A stretch of DNA of 64,000 nt from Melioribacteraceae bacterium (GTDB taxonomy: Bacteria; Bacteroidota; Ignavibacteria; Ignavibacteriales; Melioribacteraceae): assembly GCA_022181065.1 (NCBI GenBank), contig BQMY01000074.1, positions 124,001-188,000 on the forward strand, read 5' to 3'. Below the pieces are notes generated by a model. The model worked only from the letters and a program-made list of their open reading frames with translations, had not been told where the DNA came from and made no database searches. Below, piece by piece: positions 3,666 to 59,560 of the stretch; position 1 is the first letter of the stretch, and every line of letters begins with the position of its first letter. The translations under genes were made by a program, and so were the position numbers.

Positions 3666-3870
3666 CATCCAGACTGGTGACAAGGTGAATTTCTTTTAAA
3701 GTCCTCCTTCTGAAGGAGGTGTATTCCGACGATAGTCGGAAGACGGAGGATGATTCATTACGCTTTTGGCGATTTTTAGTCATCCAATATCAAAAAAATC
3801 AGCTAATGGTTGGACGATTTCCCTCTTACAACCTATGCGCCTTAGTCTTAAGGAACCTCAATAGAAACAG
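3666..3870 (-). repeat. dispersed composite repeat, copy A (diverged full copy)
   Basis: Inverted relative to copies B, C and E. It begins with CCAGACTGGTGACAAGG (the terminal repeat), then a GTCCTCCTTC/GAAGGAGG hairpin, an inner TTCCGAC/GTCGGAA hairpin and GGAGGATGA (3699-3753). A decayed second module follows (GTCATCC at 3779, then GATTTCCCTCTTACAACC..GCGCC to about 3855) and aligns with module 1 of copy B. It fills the gap between two convergent genes. Confidence 0.75.
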
Positions 3871-15215: not shown

Positions 15216-15244
15216 TGCCGGAGTATCAAAAAGATATTCCGGCT
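15216..15244 (+). terminator. maeB terminator hairpin, first copy
   Basis: GCCGGAGTATC/GATATTCCGGC stem. It is identical over 29 bp to 15466-15494, on the other side of repeat B, but here it is followed by repeat sequence rather than a T-run. Confidence 0.7.
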
Positions 15245-15465
15245 GAGATTGTTGAGAAACCTGGTTGTTGATTTTCACGTCCCCCTTACGCCTGAGGCGC
15301 ACAGGTTTGAAGGGGGAAATCACTCCGCCAACGGCGGATTTTGTGATGGGGGATGACTAAAAGTCACAATAAATGCAATAAATCATCCTCCGTCTTCCGA
15401 CATTCGTCGGAATCCACCTCCTTCCAAGGAGGACTTTAAGACGAAACGACTTTGTAAACAGACTG
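15245..15465 (+). repeat. dispersed composite repeat, copy B (full length)
   Basis: 221 bp between two identical 29-bp hairpins. Left end GAGATTGTTGAGAAACC; right end TTTGTAAACAGACTG; these are imperfect inverted repeats of each other. Module 1 is CCCCCTT..GAAGGGGG with an extra CGCCTGAGGCG hairpin in the loop, an inner TCCGCC/GGCGGA hairpin and GGGGGATGA. Module 2, inverted, is TCATCCTCC, TTCCGAC/GTCGGAA and CCTCCTT/AAGGAGG. Confidence 0.85.
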
Positions 15466-15494
15466 TGCCGGAGTATCAAAAAGATATTCCGGCT
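15466..15494 (+). terminator. maeB terminator hairpin, second copy
   Basis: Same 29 bp as 15216-15244, followed here by TCTTTTTAA, so this copy has the form of a functional Rho-independent terminator. Confidence 0.75.
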
Positions 15495-22140: not shown

Positions 22141-22163
22141 TATCTCCCACGAACTGGAAAAGC

Positions 22164-22183
22164 GCCACCCCGAAGGGATGGCT
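22164..22183 (-). repeat. locus hairpin, distal copy beside repeat C
   Basis: GCCACCCC/GGGATGGC hairpin. It matches 22375-22395 across the element, with small changes in the loop and one base in the stem. Confidence 0.6.
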
Positions 22184-22374
22184 GAAATTGTTGAAAAACC
22201 TGGCTGTTGATTTTCAAGTCCCCCTTCCGAAGGGGGAGATCACGTTTTTTGTGATGGGGGATGACCAAAAGTCACAAAAAACGCAATAAATCATCCTCCG
22301 TCTTCCGACATTCGTCGGAATCCACCTCCTTCAAAGGAGGACTTTAGAACGAAATGACTTTGTCAACAGTCTGA
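22184..22374 (+). repeat. dispersed composite repeat, copy C (full length)
   Basis: 191 bp. Left end GAAATTGTTGAAAAACC; right end TTTGTCAACAGTCTGA. Module 1 is GTCCCCCTTCCGAAGGGGGA, an inner ATCAC/GTGAT hairpin and GGGGGATGA. Module 2 inverted is TCATCCTCC, TTCCGAC/GTCGGAA and CCTCCTT/AAGGAGGAC. The simplest copy, without extra loop insertions. Confidence 0.85.
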
Positions 22375-22395
22375 GCCATCCCCCAAGGGATGGCT
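22375..22395 (-). terminator. hairpin after the VIT/VWA gene, proximal copy
   Basis: GCCATCCC/GGGATGGC hairpin nine bases beyond the stop of the gene at 22404; probable terminator. Duplicated at 22164-22183. Confidence 0.55.
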
Positions 22396-22403
22396 CTATA
22401 CAA

Positions 22404-34624: not shown

Positions 34625-34738
34625 TGCAGACTGCCGGTATTAAGAGTCCTCATTCTGATGCAGGTGGGTTCCTACGAAGTTGGAAGACGGTGGATGATTT
34701 ATTGGGAATTGAGACTTTTTGGTCATCCCCACCCCAAT
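34625..34738 (-). repeat. dispersed composite repeat, copy D (degraded)
   Basis: GCAGACTG end, decayed module 2 (AGTCCTCATTCTGATGCAGG, then GGAAGACGGTGGATGATTTATTG) and the GGTCATCCCC start of module 1. It abuts the stop codon of the S41 protease gene and is in the opposite orientation, relative to that gene, to most other copies. Confidence 0.65.
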
Positions 34739-42979: not shown

Positions 42980-43201
42980 GAGTTTGTTGAAAAACCTGAT
43001 TGTTTATTTCCAAGTCCCCCTAACGCCTGAGGCGCCCAAATCCGAAGGGGGAAATCACTTCGCCATAGGTGAATTTTGGGATGGGGGATGACCAAAAGTC
43101 ATGAAAAAAATAAAAAATCATCCTCCGTTTTTCGACTATCGTCGAAATCCACCTCTTTCAAAAGGAGGACCTGCATATGTCTACATTTTGTCAACAGTCT
43201 G
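42980..43201 (+). repeat. dispersed composite repeat, copy E (full length)
   Basis: 222 bp. Left end GAGTTTGTTGAAAAACC; right end TTTGTCAACAGTCTG. Module 1 has the CGCCTGAGGCG hairpin in its loop as in copy B, then GGGGGATGA. Module 2 inverted has TCATCCTCC, TTTCGAC/GTCGAAA (a compensated change on both arms) and CCTCTTT/AAAGGAGGAC. Confidence 0.85.
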
Positions 43202-43222
43202 AAGCGCGGCGAACCGCGCCTT
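43202..43222 (-). terminator. hairpin after the DUF3857 gene, proximal copy
   Basis: GCGCGG/CCGCGC stem with a CGAA loop, 26 bp beyond the stop of the gene at 43248. Related hairpin at 42960-42979. Confidence 0.5.
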
Positions 43223-53110: not shown

Positions 53111-53235
53111 CAAAACTCCGATATAAATAAGTAGTTATTCTAAATCTAATTATTATGGAGTTATAAATCCAGATTGTGTTTTTACGTGTACATATAAAAT
53201 AGTGAACAATTGATTTTTCACACATAATGAAATTA

Positions 53236-53313
53236 TCATCCTCCGTCTTCCGACCGAGTCGGAAGCCACCTCCTCCCGAAAGCTTACGGGACAGGTTCAA
53301 AAGGAGGACTTTG
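53236..53313 (-). repeat. dispersed repeat, copy F (module 2 only)
   Basis: TCATCCTCC, TTCCGAC/GTCGGAA and CACCTCC..AAGGAGGACTTT. The outer hairpin's loop contains an extra TCCCG/CGGGA hairpin plus ACAGGTT. Terminal inverted repeats and module 1 are missing. Lies between proC and the GNAT gene. Confidence 0.75.
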
Positions 53314-59489: not shown

Positions 59490-59506
59490 TCTAAGTACTC
59501 AATGAA

Positions 59507-59560
59507 TCATCCTCCGTCTTTCGACTATCGTCGAAATCCACCTCCTTCGAAGGAGGACGG
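59507..59560 (+). repeat. dispersed repeat, copy G (module 2 only)
   Basis: TCATCCTCC, TTTCGAC/GTCGAAA (same compensated variant as copy E) and CCTCCTTCGAAGGAGGAC. Lies between convergent genes and next to the CreD terminator hairpin. Confidence 0.75.

Follow-up and report, generated by a model that had tools for sequence, protein, structure and literature searches.

We identify the element at the centre of this study as an IS1182-family MITE. It lies in the window, the whole 64,000-nt stretch of Melioribacteraceae DNA that was analysed, and very probably (approximately 85%) owes its mobility to an IS1182-family DDE transposase, acting in trans, that inserts at stem-loops and leaves the whole stem-loop duplicated. 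The original prediction, made from the letters of the window, had proposed imperfect terminal inverted repeats around two facing modules and had likened the whole to a MITE. The repeats are as it described, with both boundaries common to the copies in the source genome, and the two facing modules are supported. The MITE assignment is borne out by dispersed copies, common ends, the absence of a long open frame and target duplication. The hairpin duplications that flank the element, at 22164-22182 and 22375-22394, had not been noticed.

Copies of the element in the source genome

The source genome assembly (4.9 Mb in 164 contigs, several of which end inside copies of the MITE) gave at least 43 BLAST matches to the element, with the best 40 of 186 candidates scored. 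The right end, GACTTTGTCAACAGTCTGA, occurred 58 times with up to 3 mismatches, compared to a single occurrence of a reversed-pattern control. Both ends were present in 32 copies of no more than 250 bp, found in 64 fetched loci; 4 of 36 end pairs were longer than this and were excluded before counting. The aligned copies were 191-226 bp long and had sharp, common boundaries (30 of the 32 were aligned, leaving out L067 and L092). Thus, the further copies with shared boundaries on which the original prediction depended were found throughout the genome.

Features in the window, including additional copies and fragments, are listed in Table 1. The second copy is flanked by identical (100%) hairpin-forming repeats of 29 nt, at 15216-15244 and 15466-15494, and the edges of repeat and element overlap within 1 nt. 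The longest open stretch in the copy under study is 38 codons, and a transposase gene is absent. On one side this copy has a predicted small-protein gene, and on the other a gene whose predicted product is large and has a sorting-type domain at its C terminus.

Table 1. Positions of the MITE, its flanking hairpins, its modules and related sequences in the window
Feature	Position	Strand	Remarks
MITE body	22184-22374	+	~191 bp; left edge uncertain by ~1 nt (22183/22184)
MITE left end, GAAATTGTTGAAAAACCTGG...	22184-22212	+	matches one end of IS1182 element L110
MITE right end, TCAGACTGTTGACAAAGTC (minus strand)	22356-22374	-	its CAGACTGTTGACAAAG is identical to the other end of IS1182 element L110
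Left copy of duplicated target hairpin, GCCACCCCGAAGGGATGGC	22164-22182	.	abuts MITE left end
Right copy of duplicated target hairpin, GCCATCCCCCAAGGGATGGC	22375-22394	.	abuts MITE right end
Module B: GTCCCCCTT..AAGGGGGA, inner hairpin, GGGGGATGA	22218-22264	+	from sequence and copy alignments
Module A: GTCCTCCTT..AAGGAGG, inner hairpin CCGACGAATGTCGG, GGAGGATGA	22291-22343	- (read on minus strand)	CCTCC type, facing module B
Second MITE copy (L037)	15244-15465	+	start 15244/15245
Third MITE copy	42984-43202	+	71% identical
Decayed MITE copy	3670-3798	-	right half aligned
Module A without MITE ends	59497-59558	+	
Module A fragment, decayed	34645-34730	-	
Module A fragment without MITE ends	53218-53274	+	

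The region from 22161 to 22397, which includes the flanking hairpins, has a predicted fold of -95.9 kcal/mol on the plus strand and -102.9 kcal/mol on the minus strand (z = -6.4 on each strand, a value reached by 0 of 200 shuffles). A strong fold and a conserved interior would also be expected of a structured regulatory RNA, or of a 3'-end element, that is maintained for a function of its own and transposes only incidentally. We consider this explanation very improbable. No Rfam family matched in the window at gathering scores, and there was little covariation, with both-sided change in 2 of 32 predicted pairs among the aligned copies. In addition, the target duplications are specific to each locus, and the element is essentially restricted to the source genome: among 97 genomes, including the source, with at most the best 8 candidates scored per genome, the only match elsewhere was a weak one of 54 nt, in another family.

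At one locus (L079, G000:C104:22258-27419), a degraded relative lies 561 nt from a full MITE, and the two have similar right flanks, suggesting that the insertion was copied together with its surroundings in a local duplication. Other copies are interrupted. The same foreign sequence end (..AAGTTGACGCCATTGC) interrupts five copies (L074, L077, L093, L098 and L288), the cut lying within the CTT..AAGG hairpin of a module, and a variant of this end is present in L066. A second foreign end (..TTTCAGGACTATACACC) interrupts L056 and L078, and L096 carries a close variant of it. The MITE seems to be used as a target by other IS; REPs are known as targets of other IS.

Hairpin duplications flanking the MITE and its IS1182 relatives

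A direct repeat abutted the element (score ≥8) in 21 of the 32 two-ended MITE copies, compared to 3 of 992 mispaired flanks; the other 11 copies had no clear abutting repeat. Each locus had its own repeat, a short palindrome or complete stem-loop of variable length (e.g., 27 nt in L037, the second copy in the window; 28 nt in L069, where there is one mismatch; and 20 nt in L083). Hairpins were flush with the left junction in 23 of 32 copies and with the right junction in 26, but were seen in only 3-12 copies when the offset was 4-25 nt. None of the 32 copies was within an ORF (≥100 aa). The 3' end of at least one gene faced the MITE in 29 copies, 13 of which were between convergent genes, and the median distance from the MITE to the facing stop was 40.5 nt. 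Judging from position, hairpin and tracts, the targets would be mostly intrinsic terminators.

Autonomous IS1182 relatives in other phyla had duplications of the same kind. There were 80 IS1182 loci from named genomes, and 69 of these were examined by a motif-anchored end search, leaving out 11 with partial transposase matches. Both ends were identified at 64 of the 69 (one end was missing in L161, L168, L169, L199 and L220), and the flanks were usable at 58 (the other 6 had short flanks or N). An abutting direct repeat was present at 45 of the 58 loci, 43 of them perfect; the IS and the MITE, with its 21 of 32 copies, thus share this kind of target duplication. Repeats with a score of at least 15 were found at 43 of the 58 loci and in 0 of 3306 mispaired controls. 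The repeats were 10-33 nt long; the lone 10-nt case had no fold, and the perfect hairpin cases were 15-33 nt. A flush stem was present in 43 of the 45 repeats, and 42 were preceded by an A tract or followed by a T tract. Duplications were also present at plasmid copies of IS1182 elements (L331, 18 nt; L334, 28 nt).

No duplication was found at 13 of the 58 loci (L158, L164, L166, L167, L180, L185, L195, L196, L197, L202, L218, L222 and L231), nor at the one copy examined of each of ISEfa7 (43% identity) and ISCfr1 (29%). L164, L180, L185, L222 and L231 have differing terminator hairpins at their two ends, a pattern that recombination between copies would produce.

Empty sites were compared for two IS relatives, L174 and L331, rather than for the MITE itself. 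For L174, in Bacillus halotolerans, the orthologous sites elsewhere in the genus (L252-L260) hold a single terminator; the closest of these, L253, is identical at 385 of 400 positions to the joined flanks plus one hairpin, and at 80 of 80 at the junction. For L331, on an IncC plasmid of Providencia, the element-free IncC plasmids L335 and L336 match the left flank, one 18-nt hairpin and the right flank at 400 of 400 positions. In both cases, Bacillus and IncC plasmids, the filled site has two hairpins where the empty site has one. Therefore, the elements target the hairpin and duplicate all of it.

Two other explanations of the hairpins are addressed by these data, and we judge both to be highly improbable. 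The hairpins could be terminators that belong to the ends of the element, rather than duplicated target, and they do abut both ends in most copies. However, their sequence agrees within a locus and differs between loci, and the presence of exactly one hairpin in the empty sites refutes this explanation for the IS relatives. Alternatively, the target hairpin could be removed and replaced without any duplication. The transposase family is that of IS1272 and TnSha1, which target terminator hairpins according to passages of PMC5678879 and PMC4923244, and a hairpin is the target here as well. In the present case, however, the hairpin is duplicated and not lost, which refutes replacement for the copies with intact duplication.

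Interior modules and the source of the transposase

The original prediction had compared the interior to a BIME, or paired REPs, packaged in a MITE, and had suggested a search for a REP-associated (RAYT/TnpA) or other transposase with matching ends. The comparison holds in form: the interior consists of palindromic units in facing pairs, is extragenic, and its modules also occur apart from the MITE ends. The GGATGA/TCATCC pairing was invariant in 30 of 30 aligned copies, and this lack of variation neither favours nor disfavours it. The covariance model that had been called for was built for the right half of the MITE only (R1), from an alignment of 25 of the 32 two-ended copies (A2). Of its best 150 matches in the source genome, 50 had the MITE right end and 100 did not. 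Some matches without this end were solitary, some lay beside a third palindromic unit, and others formed tandem arrays. A REP-like repeat may have combined with IS1182 ends, or may have escaped from them. Arrays of module A without MITE ends had a period of approximately 209 nt in L281 (G000:C93:51300-53100) and 434 nt in L283, and were irregular in L282.

The connection to RAYT did not hold. Movement of a REP/BIME element by a RAYT (HUH/Y1) transposase would fit intergenic palindromic modules that alternate in orientation, and also module matches that lack the MITE end, some of them in tandem arrays. We nevertheless rejected RAYT as the mobiliser, and consider it very unlikely: the full module pattern was present at 50 of 64 MITE loci but at 0 of 33 Y1-transposase loci (3 in the source genome and 30 in relatives) and at 0 of 80 control loci, so that a cognate RAYT with matching units was absent from all 33. 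The Y1-transposase genes (PF01797) of the source genome are flanked by other repeats. RAYT elements would not be expected to have ends of the IS1182 type or to make long target duplications. Two of the Y1 genes in the source genome (L031, 900-2300; L032, 1400-2010) have their own palindromic repeats on each side, unrelated to the MITE modules.

Instead, the MITE ends correspond to those of an IS1182 DDE element. We inspected 30 DDE_Tnp_1_6 transposase loci (1 in the source genome and 29 in relatives), and one of these, L110 in the related genome G002, bears the unequal end pair of the MITE, CCAGGTTGTTGAAAAACC / CCAGACTGTTGACAAAG. Its 481-aa transposase scored 472 bits against NF033551 (cut-off 270) and also matched PF05598 and PF13751, which places it in the IS1182 family; no solved structure was found for it by sequence at E 0.01. 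L110 is the same as L158, and the same sequence is present in Ignavibacteriae bacterium IGN16 (JABFGH010000009.1). The hairpins flanking the L110 element (1303-2907) do not have loops that are direct copies; the loop on one side is the reverse complement of the loop on the other.

The L110 protein had zero matches in the source genome, so no cognate transposase for the MITE was identified there, and a search of the source genome for an autonomous MITE-related copy found none. The traces of IS1182 in that genome were a broken relic (L034) and an IS1182-like gene (L099), with related but different ends. We did not count the missing cognate transposase as defining, because MITEs may rely on a transposase acting in trans or be left as orphans.

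Target structure and comparison with known systems

In 41 of 42 perfect cases (score ≥15), the centre of the duplication coincided with the dyad; the length varied. In 30 of the 42, pairing extended beyond the duplication into the A/T tracts, indicating that the position of the cut is not simply that of the palindrome end. The duplication began with A in 37 of 42 cases and ended with T in 31. Together with the outward pairing, this places the joining points approximately where the strong stem meets the A/T tract.

These patterns are consistent with a mechanism in which the target stem-loop would be extruded as a cruciform and both 3' ends of the element would be joined at the 5' feet of the extruded stem-loop. 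Gap repair would next copy the whole stem, and the length of the duplication would therefore follow that of the hairpin. The genes on both sides would keep a terminator, and insertion would be nearly harmless. We lean somewhat towards the more general proposal that this IS1182 clade and its MITEs measure the target by structure: the feet of the stem-loop would set both strand-transfer points, the duplication would be exactly one terminator of any length, and a terminator would be regenerated on each side.

The target duplication made by a DDE transposase is normally a few bp of fixed length, set by the spacing of the active sites. If our proposal is correct, then there is a mode of DDE transposition in which the target, not the enzyme, sets the length of the duplication. 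That the duplication is a complete, dyad-centred hairpin of 15-33 nt points to recognition of the target by structure. The function of the target would be copied and not broken, which may explain a low-cost build-up of elements between genes. The many natural insertions, two of them with empty sites, could be used to test the model of stem-loop transposition that was put forward for IS1272.

Other systems have some of these properties. Group IIC introns also insert at intrinsic terminators, by RNA-based retrohoming, and are not known to duplicate the hairpin. BIMEs and REPINs with RAYT resemble the MITE in having facing palindromic modules, an intergenic location and high copy number; in contrast to them, the MITE has IS1182 ends and target duplications and no RAYT with matching units.

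Two Staphylococcus members of the IS1182 family, IS1272 and TnSha1, share the transposase family and the hairpin target. In passages of Wan et al. 2017 (PMC5678879) and Furi et al. 2016 (PMC4923244), this target is often a transcription terminator, without sequence consensus, and the hairpin is lost on insertion, whereas the MITE and its relatives duplicate the whole hairpin. Among the pathways drawn by Wan et al. in those passages, duplication of the whole hairpin appears as hypothetical pathway b only, and a review by Siguier et al., as cited there (PMC5678879), states that some IS1182 members target palindromes. We recognised no prior report of stem-loop duplication by IS1182 elements in titles, the starts of abstracts and some passages of the literature (ISfinder and TnPedia were outside this scope), and priority for this observation is uncertain.

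Close parallels are the IS1182 elements of Bacillaceae, Lentisphaera, Collimonas, and IncC and Bacillus plasmids (L159-L235, L331 and L334). They have a related terminal motif, CAG-N-C/T-TG, and make the same stem-loop duplication. They are approximately 1.5-1.9 kb long and encode a transposase, whereas the MITE has no transposase gene and carries REP-like modules.
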